A stretch of DNA of 23,219 nucleotides from SAR202 cluster bacterium (GTDB lineage: Bacteria > Chloroflexota > Dehalococcoidia > UBA3495), in the NCBI GenBank assembly GCA_009392775.1, contig VFFT01000084.1, forward strand, positions 1 through 23,219. The letters are read 5' to 3'. The translations under genes were made by a program, and so were the position numbers. The notes under the pieces were generated by a model, which searched no databases, was not told where the DNA came from, and saw only the letters and a list, made by a program, of their open reading frames with translations. This document shows, in pieces, positions 11,177-19,824 of the stretch (position 1 is its first letter; every line of letters begins with the position of its first letter).

Positions 11177-11204
11177 CCTGAAAATACCCTAGGAGGTAAC
11201 AAGT

Positions 11205-11744
11205 ATGCCTAGTGAGCAAAACAATGTATTTTTGCATCCAGGGGTGGAAGATGAAGCCGAAACTTTTGGGCTCGCTAATAGATTGCCAAGCCTTTCTGGT
11301 ATGAAGATAGGATTGATAGATAATCGTAAACGCAATGCCGATCTGTATTTAGAGGAAATAGCTCGCATCTTTGAAGAACAATATGGCGTAACTGAATTTC
11401 AGACTTATCGGAAGGCCAGTCAGAGTATTCCAACTCCGGCAGACGTGTTGGATGATATGGCCCAAAACTGCGATGCAATAATTCATGCGGTGGCGGATTG
11501 AGGGTCTTGTACAACGTGGGGTCTCCACGATGGAATAGAATCCGAGAAAAGGGGAAAGCCTGCGGTTACAGTAATAACCGAGGCATTCATAAAAGCGGCT
11601 GGTATCAGAGCCAAGACATTGGGTATGGCCGACCACCCTGTGGTGGTAATTGAACATCCTATAGCCAGTAAGACTAAACAAGAGATCCATGAAACAGCTC
11701 GCCGTAGCGTGGAGAAGATTGTCCTCGGGCTTCGTGGTTCATAA
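11205..11744 (+). CDS. UGSC-family selenoprotein, with in-frame TGA read as selenocysteine
   Basis: The frame starting ATG 11205 (AGGAGGT seven bases upstream) meets TGA at 11499-11501 after 98 codons. The same frame then continues for 80 sense codons to TAA at 11742-11744. Around the TGA it reads AVAD-U-GSCTTWGLHDGIE, and downstream VVVIEHPIAS. This is the UGSC motif and C-terminal half of the UGSC family, known in selenocysteine and cysteine forms and seen in marine metagenomes. The full product is 179 residues with Sec99 and Cys102, a U-x-x-C redox pair. A SECIS-like hairpin follows the TGA at the proper distance. It is soluble and its reaction is unknown, but a thiol/selenol redox role is likely. 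The next gene begins 30 bases downstream. An ordinary reading would wrongly give a 98-residue protein. Confidence 0.9.
11494..11544 (+). promoter_or_regulatory. Bacterial SECIS-like element
   Basis: CGTGG (11515-11519), loop GGTCT (11520-11524) and CCACG (11525-11529) form an apical hairpin starting 16 bases after the T of the TGA. Loop sequence GGUC(U) and this distance match the known E. coli fdhF SECIS bound by SelB. A lower stem CGGATT (11494-11499) with AATCCG (11539-11544) can also form and includes the U of the UGA. Confidence 0.8.
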
Positions 11745-11774: not shown

Positions 11775-12833
11775 TTGGTAGCCTCGAAAAGAGCAAGTCG
11801 GCTAGATGTGACCGGGTCACTTGTTGATGTCAATAACTACTTCTATGACCAGGGATGGACCGATGGCTTGCCCATAATACCTCCCACTGAAGATCTTGTG
11901 TTTGAAATGTTGGAGGCATGCCCTCTAGCAGCAGATCAGGTTTTAGGAAGAATGCCTCCGATGAACGGAAGCGTCACCCCTGAGAAGATAGCTATAAATG
12001 CGGTTATGGCAGGATGCAAACCAGATTATATGCCTGTTGTTGTAGCGGCTGTTAAAGCTGTTATGCAGCCACAATTTAATGTCGCCGCAATAACTACCAC
12101 GACCGGAGGAGCAGCTCCAGCGATCATAGTAAGCGGCCCTATAGCTGATAAATTAGGAATTAATAGTGGGACTGCTGTGTTTGGATCTGGGCATCAGGCT
12201 AATGCTGCAATCGGAAGAGCCTTAAGACTAACAATGCGAAACATGGGCGGGGCGACCGTCCATACCATGGAAAAGTCGACCCATGGTTGGCCAGGTAAAT
12301 ACACGATGTGCTTTGCTGAAAATCAAGCGGCTAGTCCTTGGGAACCAGTCCATACAGGACTAGGGTACGAACCGAATAGTAACGTGGTAATAGTTGTAGC
12401 TGTTAGAGGCATACATACTTTTGTTGAAGGGGCTCAAGAGACCGGAGATGGTGTGCTGGAGACTATATGTATGGCTGTAAAAGGTGCTGGGATATCTGCT
12501 TACTACTATCAGTTACGGGGAGCTTCACCGATATTGGTGATAGGTCCGGAGCACGCGGCGGAAATATCGAAATCCGGGTATGATCGTGAGAGTGTAAAGC
12601 AATACCTGTTTGATAATGTGAGGATTCCTCTGTATGAATTGAAGGATAGAGGGCATTGGGGAGCTAGGGGATGGCCTGAGGAATGGGAGCAGCAAGGAGA
12701 GGAATTTGGTATTCCAATGGCGCTTGACCCTGATAGATATATTGTAGTAGTGGCGGGAGGAGACGGAAGACATTCGTCATGGTTGTTGCCATGGTCTGCT
12801 ACGCAAAGGGCTGTTGAGATAATAGAAACATAG
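11775..12833 (+). CDS. Uncharacterised protein, probable partner of the UGSC selenoprotein
   Basis: I do not know a function for this 352-residue protein. It appears soluble. It has strongly patterned, conserved-looking stretches: GWTDGLPIIPPT near residue 28, NAVMAGCKPDYMPVVVAAV, ATHT-like TTTTGGAAPAIIVSGPIADK, GINSGTAVFG, ANAAIGRALRLTMRNMGG, HGWPGKYTMCFAENQAASPW and a terminal GGDGRHSSWLLPWS. Cys in MAGC and CFAEN and several His could be functional. I have the impression that such proteins sit beside or are fused to UGSC domains in other bacteria, but cannot check. The TTG start has TAGGAG seven bases upstream. Its 30-base distance from the selenoprotein gene implies one transcript and perhaps a two-subunit enzyme. 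Confidence 0.8.
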   Translation: MVASKRASRLDVTGSLVDVNNYFYDQGWTDGLPIIPPTEDLVFEMLEACPLAADQVLGRMPPMNGSVTPEKIAINAVMAGCKPDYMPVVVAAVKAVMQPQFNVAAITTTTGGAAPAIIVSGPIADKLGINSGTAVFGSGHQANAAIGRALRLTMRNMGGATVHTMEKSTHGWPGKYTMCFAENQAASPWEPVHTGLGYEPNSNVVIVVAVRGIHTFVEGAQETGDGVLETICMAVKGAGISAYYYQLRGASPILVIGPEHAAEISKSGYDRESVKQYLFDNVRIPLYELKDRGHWGARGWPEEWEQQGEEFGIPMALDPDRYIVVVAGGDGRHSSWLLPWSATQRAVEIIET

Positions 12834-12885: not shown

Positions 12886-12932
12886 CGAGAATATAGGTAC
12901 TTGATGTTGCAAGAGAAGAAATGGAGGGAAAT

Positions 12933-15215
12933 ATGACTACAGTTGAAGGATCTAATAAATATCGTGTCATAGGAACGCGGCCTATGCGTCACGACGCAGT
13001 AGATAAAGTGACTGGAGCCGCTAAATATGGGGCTGATTTTAGTGCGCCAGGAATGTTGCACGGGAAGATACTTCGCAGCCCCCATGCTCATGCCAAAATA
13101 CTCTCAATAGATACAAGCAAGGCAGAGGCAGTACCAGGGGTTTTAGCGGTAGCTACTGCTGCTGATTTTCCTATTATTTCGGCAAGGGCCTTAGATTATG
13201 AAAACTTTCAGGGCAACCCTCGGCTCATAGCAGAGAACATTTTTGCCAATGAAAAAGTTCTCTATAAGGGTCATGCTATAGCTGCTGTCGCTGCTACTAG
13301 TCAGCATGTTGCCGAAGAGGCTGCAGCATTGATAGATGTGAAATATGAAGTTCTACCTACAGTATTGGGCTGGAGAGATGCACTGAAAGATGATGCTCCT
13401 CTATTACATGACCAGATGACCACTAGATTTAGAGTGGAACGATTTGGCCCTGGAGATGATACGGGAGAGATAAGCAATATAGCTGGGCATCTGCAACATA
13501 AATTAGGGGATATAGATAAGGGATTCAAAGAAGCAGATGTGATCTTCGAAAAAGAATATGAGACCCAGACTGTACATCAAGGCTATATAGAACCTCACGT
13601 GGCCTCTGCAGTTTGGGGGAGTGATGGTCGTGTCACAGTTTGGACTAGCACCCAAGGACCATTTTCTGTTAGAACGGCTACTGCCGCTATTCTGGGTATA
13701 CCTGATTCTTCCGTTAAGGTCGTTCCTATGGAAATTGGTGGTGGATTCGGAGCTAAGGGTGTGACCTATTTAGCTCCTGTCGCTGCTGTATTGGCAAAGA
13801 AGTCTGGAAAACCTGTCAAAGTTGTAATGACCAGGAAAGAAGTCTTTGAAGGGAGTGGTCCAGCTTCTGCGACATTCATGAGGGTAAAGTTAGGAGCAAA
13901 GAAAGATGGAAAGCTTACTGCCGGTCAGGTGTACATGGTTTACGAAGCGGGAGCATTTCCTGGTGCGCCTGTTGGTGGAGGAGCAGTTACAACTTTCGGG
14001 TCATACAATTGTGAAAATATACTTGTAGATGGATATGATGTTGTATGCAATAAACAAAAGGCACAGGCTTATCGTGCCCCCGGTCAACCACAAGCTGGGT
14101 TTGCAGTTGAGTGCGCAATCGATGAGTTGGCTGATGAGTTGAAGGTAGACCCAATGGAACTTCGCCTCAAGAACGCTGTAAGTGAAGGGGACAGGATGCC
14201 CAATGGTGTAGCGCATGCTAGGTTTGGATGTGTTGAGTTGGAAGAGGCTATGAAAAATCACCCGCATTATCTTGCTCCTCTAGGTGGACCGAACCGAGGT
14301 AGAGGAGTGGCAGTAGCGTTTAGAGCTCAGGGAGGTCAGGTTTCCTCAGCAACTATCAATGTTAACAGCGATGGAACCTTAAATTTGATAACTGGTTCTG
14401 TGGATATTGGTGGTACGCGGACTGCTACTGCGATGCAGGTTGCAGAAGTATTGGGCATAGATTCAGAAGATATTAACCCCGCAGTTGCTGATACAGATAG
14501 CGTAGGTTATACGGGTAACACAGGGGGTAGCCGCACCGCATTTGATACTGGGCTTGCGGGGATAGCTGCTGCTGAAGAAGTCATAAAACAGATGAAAGGT
14601 AGAGCTGCTCTACTCTGGGAAGTTCAAGACGAGGATGTGGAATTCGCAGATGGTACGTTTGTTTGCTCTAAGAACGCCGAAGATAAATATACTTTCAAAG
14701 AATTGGCCACTCGATTAATGCGTACTGGTGGACCGGTGACTTGCTCGGCTTCAGCTCCTTCTACAGGTGTTGGTCCGATTTTTAGTGGCAATATTGTCGA
14801 TGTGGAAGTTGATCCGGATACGGGCAAGGTGGAAATATTGCGGTGTACCGCATTTATTGACGCTGGGCAAGCAGTCCATCCCAGTTTTGTAGAGGGTCAA
14901 ATTCAGGGAGCAACAGTGCAAGGAGTAGGCTGGGCTCTAAATGAAGAATATGTCTACAATGATGATGGATCAGTGGCTAATGCCAGCTTTTTGGATTATC
15001 GAATGCCGACCAGCTTAGATCTTCCGATGATTGACTCGGTAATTATAGAAGTTCCTAATCCAAGACATCCGTTCGGTCTGAGAGGTGTAGGGGAAGGTCC
15101 AATAATACCTCCTTTACCTGCTTTAGCTAATGCTATTTCTCATGCTACAGGTGTACGAATGCGTAAATTACCGATGTCACCCGGAAATATTTTAGAGGCT
15201 ATTGAATCTAATTAA
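12933..15215 (+). CDS. Xanthine dehydrogenase family molybdenum-binding (large) subunit
   Basis: This is a molybdenum hydroxylase large subunit (CoxL/XdhB-like) of 760 residues, the normal length. Starting at ATG 12933 (GGAGGG just upstream) is preferred over ATG 12921, which has no clear SD. The N-terminal hammerhead domain has AVDKVTGAAKYGADF and GKILRSPHAHAKI. The Mo-cofactor domain shows IGGGFGAKG near 269, QAYRAPGQPQ (AYR at 379-381), and the catalytic Glu721 in RGVGEGPIIPP. AYRAPG differs from the AYxCSFR loop of form I CO dehydrogenase, so CO is not the expected substrate; an aromatic or N-heterocyclic compound is more likely. No [2Fe-2S] or FAD subunit gene is adjacent, which is unusual. 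No Tat signal. Confidence 0.92.
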   Translation: MTTVEGSNKYRVIGTRPMRHDAVDKVTGAAKYGADFSAPGMLHGKILRSPHAHAKILSIDTSKAEAVPGVLAVATAADFPIISARALDYENFQGNPRLIAENIFANEKVLYKGHAIAAVAATSQHVAEEAAALIDVKYEVLPTVLGWRDALKDDAPLLHDQMTTRFRVERFGPGDDTGEISNIAGHLQHKLGDIDKGFKEADVIFEKEYETQTVHQGYIEPHVASAVWGSDGRVTVWTSTQGPFSVRTATAAILGIPDSSVKVVPMEIGGGFGAKGVTYLAPVAAVLAKKSGKPVKVVMTRKEVFEGSGPASATFMRVKLGAKKDGKLTAGQVYMVYEAGAFPGAPVGGGAVTTFGSYNCENILVDGYDVVCNKQKAQAYRAPGQPQAGFAVECAIDELADELKVDPMELRLKNAVSEGDRMPNGVAHARFGCVELEEAMKNHPHYLAPLGGPNRGRGVAVAFRAQGGQVSSATINVNSDGTLNLITGSVDIGGTRTATAMQVAEVLGIDSEDINPAVADTDSVGYTGNTGGSRTAFDTGLAGIAAAEEVIKQMKGRAALLWEVQDEDVEFADGTFVCSKNAEDKYTFKELATRLMRTGGPVTCSASAPSTGVGPIFSGNIVDVEVDPDTGKVEILRCTAFIDAGQAVHPSFVEGQIQGATVQGVGWALNEEYVYNDDGSVANASFLDYRMPTSLDLPMIDSVIIEVPNPRHPFGLRGVGEGPIIPPLPALANAISHATGVRMRKLPMSPGNILEAIESN

Positions 15216-16144: not shown

Positions 16145-16229
16145 CAATTCATTCCCTAATACGGAATGTGTCGAAACCTTTACTAATTGGGTATAAAGTT
16201 ACGAAACTATACTAGTGGAGTTTGAAGTT

Positions 16230-17651
16230 ATGACTGGTTATTCTGAAATTTCTAGGATAGCTCACTTGTTACGTAGGGCGGGGTTTGGAGCTAGTAGGGA
16301 AGATCTTGAACATTATTCCGATATGGGTTATGAAGCGACCGTAGAAGAATTGCTTAACCCTGAGCTTCAGCCTGATTACGAAGATGATTTAGCCTATCGG
16401 TACGTTCCCTACTACCGCATGGGTACTGGAATACCTAGCTACCAGTGTTACTGGATGTACAGGATGATAAGTACTCGTAGACCCTTAGAAGAGAAAATGA
16501 CCCTTTTCTGGCATCATGTCTTCGCGACTAGTCATTCCAAGCTAAATCGTAACCCTCAGATGAATAAACAACTGAAATTATTACGTAGTTTTGCTATGGG
16601 TAATTTTAGGACGATACTCATAGAAATTTCCAAAGATCCCGCGATGATATATTGGCTGGATAACTGTGAGAATCATAATGGGGCACCCAATGAAAACTAC
16701 GGAAGGGAATTATTAGAGTTGTTTTCTATGGGTGTAGGGATGGACCAAGGATTCAATTACTCGGAAGATGATGTTAAGGAATGTGCGAGAGCCTTTACGG
16801 GATGGACTATGGCACCTCAGCTGCCAAGATACCCTTACGGTGATTACTGTTGGGATTTTGAATATCGTACAGATGACCATGATCATGGGGAAAAATCCTT
16901 CCTTGGTGAGACTGGCAGATTCAATGGCGACGATATAGTTGACATAATCGTCCGACAGCCAGCCACGGCTCGTTTCCTCTCCCGTCATTTGTATAACTTT
17001 TTCGTGTCTGATGAACCCCAGGTACCTTCTTGGCAAACTAGTGATCCTCAAGACCCTAAGGCAATAAAAATACTGGAAGATGAATATTTCAGATCTAATG
17101 GCGACGTTAGGTCTATGTTACGTGTTTTATTTAATTCAGATTTCTTTAAGAATTCTTCGTATAAGAAAGTGAAAAGTCCCGCAGAGCTAATTGCGGGCGT
17201 TATGCGTCTAGTAGATGATTACACGACTCCAAAACCGAATAGTCACGAAATAGCGTTCGCTGCAGCTTATATGGGACAAGATTTATTGAATCCTCCTACC
17301 GTTGAAGGATGGCATACAGGTAAAGAGTGGATAGATAGCGGAGCGTTGGTTGAAAGGGTTAATTTTGCGGCGGATCGAGTCGGTGATATCAACATGCCAG
17401 GCGTACAGAGAATTGTTGATAGATTGTCTGCATTGGGACCTGTAATACAGTCTGGCGACCTACTGGATCACACTTTAGAATTAGCTGGACCCGTGGAGGT
17501 TTCTAGCGATCGTAGGGCAGAATTAATGTCTTATCTAGAGAAGTATACAGAGATTAAATGTGGCACTCCGGAAGATATGAATAATTTTGCATTAATTGTA
17601 ACTGGTTTGTTGCGGCTTATAGTAGCTTCGCGCGAGTTCCAGTTTGCATAA
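16230..17651 (+). CDS. DUF1800 family protein
   Basis: This 473-residue protein shows clear DUF1800 marks: AHLLRRAGFGASREDL at the start, EEKMTLFWHHVFATSHSK near residue 90, NYGRELLELFSMGVG near 160, then ARAFTGWTM and PPTVEGWHTGKEW. ATG 16230 is chosen because GGAG (16217-16220) lies nine bases upstream; GTG 16215 is in frame but has no SD. The family function is not established; members are usually encoded beside a DUF1501 protein, as here, and often exported. No signal peptide is visible in this copy. It is first in a three-gene unit, with 16 bases to the next gene. Confidence 0.92.
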   Translation: MTGYSEISRIAHLLRRAGFGASREDLEHYSDMGYEATVEELLNPELQPDYEDDLAYRYVPYYRMGTGIPSYQCYWMYRMISTRRPLEEKMTLFWHHVFATSHSKLNRNPQMNKQLKLLRSFAMGNFRTILIEISKDPAMIYWLDNCENHNGAPNENYGRELLELFSMGVGMDQGFNYSEDDVKECARAFTGWTMAPQLPRYPYGDYCWDFEYRTDDHDHGEKSFLGETGRFNGDDIVDIIVRQPATARFLSRHLYNFFVSDEPQVPSWQTSDPQDPKAIKILEDEYFRSNGDVRSMLRVLFNSDFFKNSSYKKVKSPAELIAGVMRLVDDYTTPKPNSHEIAFAAAYMGQDLLNPPTVEGWHTGKEWIDSGALVERVNFAADRVGDINMPGVQRIVDRLSALGPVIQSGDLLDHTLELAGPVEVSSDRRAELMSYLEKYTEIKCGTPEDMNNFALIVTGLLRLIVASREFQFA

Positions 17652-17667
17652 ACGGAGTTGAATAAAA

Positions 17668-18657
17668 ATGACATTGCTTACTAAAGTTTCACCTTCATTT
17701 AAATATTCTTACACTATTGGAAATCAGGCAGTCCCGCCTGCTCATGGCTTTTCAGGGCCGGTTAGTGTGGCTGTTGCCAACAACGGGCTCTTGTACGTGC
17801 TCTGTAGTTATTATGAATATGTGCCCGCTTGGAAATTCGTAGTCAAGTGCAACATGGACGAAGATTATATAAAGCATTTTGGGTCGTATGGAGAAGGATC
17901 AGGGCAATTTACATGGCCGAATTCGATAGCGGTTGATTCTGCAGGAAGTGTATATGTAACGGACGAATGGTTGAATAGGATATCAGTTTTCGATGGTGAT
18001 GGTAATCTCGAGAAAACGCTTGGGACTGTCGGTAGTAAAGACGGAGAATGGGATAGGCCTGCGGGAATAGTATTCGATTCAGAAGACAATATGTTGGTAG
18101 TAGATAGCCTAAATCATAGAATTCAGAAGCTCTCAAAACACGGAGATTTCATAAGCAAGTTTGGAGAATTTGGTTCGGGACCCGGCCAATTTGATACACC
18201 GTGGGGTATAAACTTAGATAAAGATGGGAATGTCTATGTAGCTGATTGGAGAAACGATAGGATTCAGAAGTTTAGTCCGGATGGCAAACCCACTTTACAG
18301 ATAGGGAGTTCGGGGTCAGGCGATGGCCAGTTGGCACGCCCGAGTGGGGTGGCTGTTGACTCAGAAGGTTATATATATGTGGCAGACTGGGGCAATGACC
18401 GCGTCCAAGTGTACGATAGTATCGGTTCGTATGTAGGACAGTTTAATGGTGACTGCCATGGTTACTCAAAATGGGCCGAGGCAAGAATGGCATCTGACCC
18501 AGAAGGGATGTCTGCCGAGCGAGCTGTGGTCTCCGATTTTACAGTTGAAAGAGTGTTTTTCCAGCCTACCACAGTTAGAATAGACGATGAAGATAGAATA
18601 CTTGTAGTTGACACAGGTAGACACCGGATCCAGATATACGAAAAACAGTATAATTAA
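17668..18657 (+). CDS. NHL-repeat six-bladed beta-propeller protein
   Basis: This 329-residue protein is built almost wholly of NHL repeats. Five clear blades follow one divergent first blade. Blade cores are WPNSIAVDSAGSVYVTDEW, RPAGIVFDSEDNMLVVDS, TPWGINLDKDGNVYVADW, RPSGVAVDSEGYIYVADW and TTVRIDDEDRILVVDTGRHR. An insertion of about 45 residues separates blades five and six. Such propellers bind proteins, sugars or RNA or act as hydrolases; there is no clear catalytic signature. It has no signal peptide. It lies between DUF1800 and DUF1501 genes, so it may be a scaffold or substrate-binding part of the same complex. GGAG lies ten bases before the ATG. Confidence 0.88.
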   Translation: MTLLTKVSPSFKYSYTIGNQAVPPAHGFSGPVSVAVANNGLLYVLCSYYEYVPAWKFVVKCNMDEDYIKHFGSYGEGSGQFTWPNSIAVDSAGSVYVTDEWLNRISVFDGDGNLEKTLGTVGSKDGEWDRPAGIVFDSEDNMLVVDSLNHRIQKLSKHGDFISKFGEFGSGPGQFDTPWGINLDKDGNVYVADWRNDRIQKFSPDGKPTLQIGSSGSGDGQLARPSGVAVDSEGYIYVADWGNDRVQVYDSIGSYVGQFNGDCHGYSKWAEARMASDPEGMSAERAVVSDFTVERVFFQPTTVRIDDEDRILVVDTGRHRIQIYEKQYN

Positions 18658-18696
18658 TAATCGGGGTATCAATACCTTTAAGGAGATTAAAAAACG

Positions 18697-19824
18697 ATGA
18701 CTAGTACTAAGAAAGATCCGATATTGGTAGTGATTCAGTTAACCGGTGGTAACGATTATCTCAATACGCTTATACCGTATGGCGATCCTCTATATTATGA
18801 CAATCGTACTAACGTCGGAATACCTCAAGCCGAGGTTTTGCCAATCAATGATTACGTTGGCCTGCATCCTGCAGCATCGGCAATTAAAGACCTTTATGAC
18901 GACGGGAAAGTAGCGATTATAAATGGTGTTGGCTACCCGACTCCTAACAGGTCGCATTTCAGGTCTATGGATATATGGCACACTTGTGAGCCTGATAAGG
19001 TTGGCAACGAGGGATGGCTCGGACGAGTAATTCGTGACATAGACCCTAAGAGTGAAAACGTACTCACGGGAGTTAACTTTGGTAGAGGATTGCCAAGAGC
19101 ATTAGCACTTTCAGGAGTGCCTGTGGCTTCAGTAGCAGTTCTGGAAACTTACGGAGTCTTAACAGGCATTACGGGTGAACCTGAAAGAAGTGAAGCTTTG
19201 GATGTATTCTCACGCATGTATGCTCCAACAATCGGTGGTGGTCCGGTAATGGATTATTTGGGTCAGACAGGTCTAGACGCACTTAAGGGTGCGGATATAT
19301 TGAAGACTGCTCCTGACAAATATGAATCTACTGTAGAATACGCGGAAACTAGTATAGGTAAGAACTTGCAAGGTATCGCTAAGGTTCTTACGGCTGATCT
19401 AGGTACTAGAATCTTCTACACTCAGCATGGCGGATACGATACTCATGCTAATCAAGGTCCAGCTCACCCAAAGCTATGGACTGAGTTGTCTCAGGGTATC
19501 TCTGATTTCTATGCTGATTTACGTGAGCATGATACAGCTGATAATGTTCTGATGTTTGTGTTTACGGAGTTTGGTAGGCGTGTGAAGGATAATGGTTCTG
19601 GTACAGATCACGGCTCAGGTGGAATGGCATTGGCGATAGGCGATCCCGTTAAGGGAGGTCTATACAGTGAATATCCTTCTTTGAAAGCCGAAGATCTTTT
19701 GGAAGGTGATTTGCATTTTAATTTCGATTATCGAGGTGTCTACGGCACCATGGTCGAAAAATGGTTAGGGCTGGATGCCCAGTCTGTTGTAGGTGGGAAT
19801 TTCGAGCAACTCGGGTTTGTATAA
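18697..19824 (+). CDS. DUF1501 family protein (alkaline phosphatase superfamily fold)
   Basis: This 375-residue protein has DUF1501 marks: VVIQLTGGNDYLNTLIPYGD at the start, NRSHFRSMDIWHT near 90, QHGGYDTHANQ near 248, FVFTEFGRRVKDNGSGTDHG near 290. Conserved Asp, His and Asp-His pairs fit the metal-site pattern of the alkaline phosphatase/sulfatase superfamily. Many family members start with a Tat signal, but this one begins directly with MTSTKKDPILVV, so it seems cytoplasmic or exported by an unknown route. AAGGAG lies 11 bases before the ATG. It closes the three-gene unit and is followed by a long inverted repeat. Activity is unknown. Confidence 0.92.
   Translation: MTSTKKDPILVVIQLTGGNDYLNTLIPYGDPLYYDNRTNVGIPQAEVLPINDYVGLHPAASAIKDLYDDGKVAIINGVGYPTPNRSHFRSMDIWHTCEPDKVGNEGWLGRVIRDIDPKSENVLTGVNFGRGLPRALALSGVPVASVAVLETYGVLTGITGEPERSEALDVFSRMYAPTIGGGPVMDYLGQTGLDALKGADILKTAPDKYESTVEYAETSIGKNLQGIAKVLTADLGTRIFYTQHGGYDTHANQGPAHPKLWTELSQGISDFYADLREHDTADNVLMFVFTEFGRRVKDNGSGTDHGSGGMALAIGDPVKGGLYSEYPSLKAEDLLEGDLHFNFDYRGVYGTMVEKWLGLDAQSVVGGNFEQLGFV

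Follow-up and report, generated by a model that had tools for sequence, protein, structure and literature searches.

A UGSC family protein with a predicted selenocysteine in a SAR202 cluster bacterium, its regularly adjacent partner gene and its relation to GrdB/PrdB

The closest described systems

The UGSC family (PF24696, NF041046) has been in print as a selenocysteine (Sec)-containing family since the 2008 Global Ocean Sampling (GOS) survey, which also describes a fusion of UGSC with a second conserved domain, "Unknown_1" (PMC2398784). Since then UGSC has figured as one of the abundant selenoproteins in ocean samples, and the available parts of the papers give no function for it. A UGSC gene is located at positions 11205..11744 on the forward strand of a 23,219-nucleotide stretch of DNA from a SAR202 cluster bacterium (Chloroflexota, Dehalococcoidia; contig VFFT01000084.1), referred to here as the window. 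Its product shares the profile, the U-G-S-C motif and the Sec or Cys column of the family and shows no family-level difference, so that it is a member of the family. Because PF24696/NF041046 has been known as Sec-containing since 2008, the UGSC selenoprotein itself is not new. Two other groups of described proteins bear on the locus: GrdB and PrdB (PF07355), the Sec subunits of glycine reductase and D-proline reductase, GrdB being described with a UxxCxxC motif in a recent review (PMC13188914), and the thioredoxin-like selenoproteins with a UxxC motif.

Overall, the window gene probably encodes a full-length Sec-containing UGSC protein that would act as one subunit of a two-subunit selenoenzyme, its Sec domain sharing ancestry with the one in GrdB/PrdB. 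This reading is based on the family assignment, the Sec/Cys column, the Sec machinery of the nearest relative, the constraint on the sequence past the TGA and the pairing of UGSC with the gene encoded alongside it.

The in-frame TGA as a selenocysteine codon

The reading frame starts at the ATG at 11205, downstream of a ribosome-binding-site-like AGGAGGT (11191..11197, forward strand, read directly), reaches a TGA at codon 99 (11499..11501) and continues for 80 sense codons, reading GSCTTWGLHDGIE..., to a TAA at 11742-11744. Direct reading of 11205-11744 bears out the sequence-only reading of this DNA, which had described a TGA at codon 99 followed by 80 codons in frame. The 179 amino acid product matches PF24696 over residues 11-175 (E 1.4e-48, 165.7 bits against a cut-off of 25), which places the TGA-bridged frame beyond chance, and NF041046, named "UGSC family (seleno)protein" (E 4.9e-41, 140.2 bits against a cut-off of 125); both matches are above their cut-offs, and the family name in the sequence-only reading holds. 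In a search of all six frames of the window, no open reading frame (ORF) other than the UGSC gene had 70 or more codons ahead of an in-frame TGA and 50 or more behind it.

The occupancy of the TGA column was compared among homologues. A total of 97 UGSC matches were found in 95 retrieved loci, and 95 copies were long enough to keep; the copies are partly redundant (96 with the window, 85 of them distinct over the 44 bases from the TGA), and some loci represent the same gene. The column is a TGA in all 95 copies, 94 of which contain no other TGA. Among 22 database UGSC proteins, 13 cover the column, all with Cys, and the remaining nine begin downstream of it; three further database homologues (P0122-P0124) have Trp, probably as a result of table-4 gene calls that read TGA as Trp. 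At column 99, where the sequence-only reading had asked about Sec or Cys, the alignment thus shows TGA at 95 of 95 loci, Cys in 13 and Trp in three of the 16 column-spanning database homologues, which were chosen among the best 120 of 527 matches. UGSC is present in 94 of 294 genomes of the class, and each match contains one TGA among the matches listed; the same holds for every listed UGSC match in 59 related genomes.

The sequence past the TGA is conserved. The residue that gives the motif its C, Cys102 (codon 11508..11510, forward strand), is conserved as Cys in all 96 sequences aligned, and within the second half G100, C102, D109 and E114 are invariant across an alignment of 28 sequences. 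The most similar gene found (L017, 98% identical) differs from the window gene at seven nucleotides: four differences before the TGA, two of them residue-changing, and three after it, all synonymous. In comparisons with nine more distant relatives, the nonsynonymous divergence (dN) is lower after the TGA than before it in eight out of nine; the synonymous divergence (dS) is mostly saturated at these distances and no dN/dS ratio is therefore given.

The closest genome found, which carries L017, is a metagenome-assembled genome (MAG) of a Dehalococcoidia bacterium from the Red Sea (G001, 71% complete). The sequence-only reading had predicted that the lineage has SelA, SelB, SelC and SelD, and in G001 all four score above their cut-offs (SelA 549.5, SelB 346.8, SelD 392.4 and tRNA-Sec 62.9 bits); ARAGORN reports the tRNA as tRNA-SeC with the anticodon tca. 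The same genome contains ten UGSC copies with one TGA each. SelB is above the cut-off in 54 out of 59 related genomes and in 42 out of the 46 that contain UGSC. The selD gene of G001 (L174, G001:C29:27795-28715) has one in-frame TGA of its own and is a selenoprotein candidate in its own right.

A hairpin resembling a bacterial selenocysteine insertion sequence (SECIS) was identified by RNA folding at 11515..11529 (CGTGG-GGTCT-CCACG, forward strand), separated from the TGA by 13 bases and with weaker outer pairs enclosing the CGUGG-GGUCU-CCACG core. The E. coli fdhF element has an identical GGUCU loop. When 85 distinct sequences were tested against synonymous-codon shuffles, the 45 bases from the UGA showed a stability above that of the shuffles (mean z -0.96), and the effect was larger than in the upstream (-0.42) and downstream (-0.11) control stretches of the same test. 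An Rfam scan of the window returned nothing at the gathering score. On this comparative sequence evidence, the UGSC gene does appear to carry Sec at its in-frame TGA.

A partner gene that accompanies UGSC

The gene downstream of UGSC (11775..12833, forward strand) encodes a 352 amino acid protein for which no family was matched in Pfam and NCBIfam at E 0.001. Among 45 of its relatives, the search returned only Pfam rows with E >0.01, each in at most three members. Two cysteines are conserved among 83 aligned sequences: Cys81 (codon 12015..12017, forward strand) in 99% and Cys179 (12309..12311, forward strand) in 95%. Nevertheless, of 7,999 database candidates scored against the partner, 6,509 proved to be homologues.

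The partner is tied to UGSC by co-occurrence, copy number, adjacency and fusion. Both are present in the same 46 out of 59 related genomes and both are missing from the same 13. The 46 genomes contain between one and 13 UGSC copies each (median five); in total they yield 268 partner and 253 UGSC matches, with equal numbers in 34 genomes and a Pearson correlation of 0.97. A partner lies within 1.5 kb of UGSC at 10/10 loci in G001, at 23/29 loci across the class and at 30/30 loci among the relatives, and conversely 25 out of 30 partner loci have UGSC within the same distance; the counts among relatives and for partner loci refer to best-scoring matches. Neither gene was found at any of 30 GRDB control loci. 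The order of the two genes varies, the partner adjoins UGSC at L165 and L167, and some pairs form a single stop-free frame (e.g., L035 and the database protein P0214). The published fusion with Unknown_1 (PMC2398784) likewise ties UGSC to a second conserved domain, and the partner in the window is perhaps Unknown_1 itself.

No third gene common to many UGSC/partner copies was seen among 74 neighbour ORFs, and the commonest neighbour Pfam families each occur in four of the 74 (25 of 132 families listed). These ORFs were hand-picked from 142 near partners and cover 15 out of 18 regions; the selection leaves aside partners, UGSC halves and the ORFs of the window itself, together with most of the short ORFs and a number of the longer ones.

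Relation to GrdB/PrdB

A profile comparison (hhalign) of UGSC with GrdB/PrdB gave Prob 95, E 3.8e-8 and a score of 60.2 over residues 72-178, and the highest score among 100 column-shuffled UGSC alignments was 24.3. A set of short GRDB-like proteins compared with the UGSC profile in the same way gave Prob 94; with 11 sequences in common, this set and the long GRDB set are not independent of each other, and each set contains its query twice. When sequences were scored individually, 230 other proteins, some of them near-copies of one another, reached at most 24.7, and 12 out of 13 long GrdB rows and 14 out of 29 short GRDB rows scored higher; one decoy (L164:8629-10008, 78.6) was set aside, as it belongs to a fusion of UGSC with the partner and forms its second half. 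The UGSC motif and its flanks (D-U-G-S-C-T ... E-x-x-G-x-P) are similar to the stretch of GrdB around its Sec/Cys, and in both families the Sec/Cys motif lies between a strand and a helix and is followed by an E-x-x-G-I-P-like stretch. Position 105 of UGSC is Cys in 48 out of 96 sequences, giving the UxxCxxC spacing, and Trp in 39, including the window protein. Overall, profile and motif evidence indicate a distant homology between the Sec domain of UGSC and the one in GrdB/PrdB. The N-terminal part of GrdB has no counterpart in UGSC and the UGSC partner is not GrdE-like, which distinguishes the two systems. UGSC thus shares a domain with GrdB/PrdB and is nevertheless not placed in their family, as it has no direct PF07355 match and a partner that shows no relation to GrdB or to GrdE-like neighbours.

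When the profile of UGSC, its partner and a single GrdB-like protein were searched against PDB sequences, nothing convincing came up, and no GrdB structure was found by sequence. The short GRDB-like loci (L078, L082, L086 and others) encode proteins of about 160-240 amino acids in which only the C-terminal part of PF07355 is matched; many have a TCPxC motif and no TGA, and they are common in the related genomes.

The literature on UGSC, SAR202 selenoproteins, the structure of D-proline reductase and homologues of GrdB/PrdB, with the Sargasso Sea survey (PMC1088965) included, in the parts accessible, contains no report found to link UGSC to GrdB/PrdB or to give it a function; within this scope, neither its relation to GrdB nor its nearly one-to-one pairing with the partner appears to have been published.

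Proposed enzyme and alternative explanations

In the proposed mechanism, the SelABCD machinery would insert Sec at UGA codon 99 with the help of the hairpin just 3' of it, yielding the full-length UGSC selenoprotein. UGSC would then contribute the Sec to an enzyme of two subunits, the other of which, in physical complex with it, is the protein encoded alongside. By analogy, the partner would hold the substrate while the selenolate, located where the helix starts, attacks an activated carbon or heteroatom in it; the U-G-S-C pair may then form a Se-S bond, to be reopened by a reductant of the thioredoxin type. The paralogues, which sit among different genes, would serve different substrates. Sec insertion, complex formation, selenolate catalysis and substrate diversity are thus the proposed elements of this model.

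A number of observations weigh against the model. No SelB scores above the cut-off in four of the 46 UGSC genomes (G305, G309, G319 and G346), and the hairpin of the window on its own barely beats its shuffles (z -0.60 to -1.46). Six of the 29 class-wide UGSC loci have no partner within 1.5 kb, and one UGSC copy (L166, G304:C6:419000-437000) has none within 18 kb. The likeness to GrdB is confined to residues 72-178, 15 of the 29 short GRDB sequences score no better than the best decoy, and the window copy has Trp105 in place of the third Cys. A search at E up to 10 produced no PF07355 match for the window protein, and PF07355 was likewise missing from the families matched by 28 UGSC members (E up to 1). 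The partner shows no profile relation to GrdB, and its comparison with a GrdE-like set gave Prob 0.1 with a shallow profile (10 rows) in which GrdE was named by reading and not by family search. Because the partner resembles neither GrdB nor the GrdE-like neighbours, the pyruvoyl chemistry of glycine/proline reductase is not transferable to this pair. Among the genomes without a SelB match, G346 is 91% complete and has four UGSC copies, and its lack of SelB is perhaps an assembly gap.

In a different explanation, suggested in the literature, UGSC would be a thiol/selenol oxidoreductase of the thioredoxin-like type in which UxxC is the redox motif, and the partner would be its substrate or companion. 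The UxxC spacing is consistent with this explanation, and a 2026 review names UGSC in a sentence that ends with proteins of the Trx-like fold (PMC13188914). However, the predicted model of UGSC, with five strands alternating with helices (predicted local distance difference test score, pLDDT, 93.5), has a strand and helix order that appears to depart from the thioredoxin fold, and its best-ranked structural matches are other folds (within a Foldseek-limited list for a predicted model). The fold is therefore predicted to be alternating alpha/beta and is not evidently thioredoxin-like. Given also the profile relation to GrdB and the almost one-to-one association with a 352 amino acid partner, the oxidoreductase explanation is improbable.

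Decoding of the TGA as tryptophan (code 4) would account for the Trp in P0122-P0124, but it is very unlikely in the window, as TGA terminates two of the 21 ORFs counted as genes, and these 21 contain 100 TGG codons; the single TGA-bridged ORF, the Sec machinery of the nearest relative and the probable table-4 origin of the three Trp proteins also argue against it. A true stop that leaves a 98 amino acid protein and a second half that is a relic or a separate gene is equally implausible, despite database gene calls of 98-100 amino acids in 30 out of 33 matches, given the family profile that crosses the TGA, the full-length Cys homologues, the invariant second-half residues and the exclusively synonymous changes in the nearest relative. 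These short calls are the truncation that the sequence-only reading had foreseen; its description of the selenoprotein as hidden holds for gene callers and not beyond them, as the family is already represented in Pfam, NCBIfam and the literature.

The preferred reading, a Sec-containing subunit of a two-subunit enzyme, can be extended. UGSC and its partner might constitute a new class of two-subunit selenoenzymes, in which the Sec subunit has a domain ancestor in common with GrdB/PrdB, the substrate subunit is of another kind, and the pair has radiated, among the relatives of this marine bacterium, into as many as 13 paralogues per genome that cleave different organic compounds; this extension is tentative, with the odds slightly against it. 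If it is true, the published abundance of UGSC in the ocean would make selenium a routine catalyst of marine organic-matter breakdown. A likely relative (GrdB/PrdB) and a regular partner make UGSC a testable enzyme, and standard gene calling halves its proteins in genomes with up to 13 copies.

Distribution and neighbouring genes

No UGSC was found in phage records, and 24 pattern matches in viral contigs yielded no confirmed case. Two Cys-type UGSC proteins (P0166 and P0168) are about 275 amino acids long and carry an additional N-terminal domain; for P0168, the NifU-type domain PF01106 appears in the precomputed Pfam list. In the window, a gene for a molybdopterin-binding subunit of the xanthine-dehydrogenase type (12921-15215) adjoins the UGSC pair; a counterpart lies beside the UGSC pair in L158 and a match was also found within L168. 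Further downstream, DUF1800, NHL-repeat and DUF1501 genes follow in succession (16215-19824).
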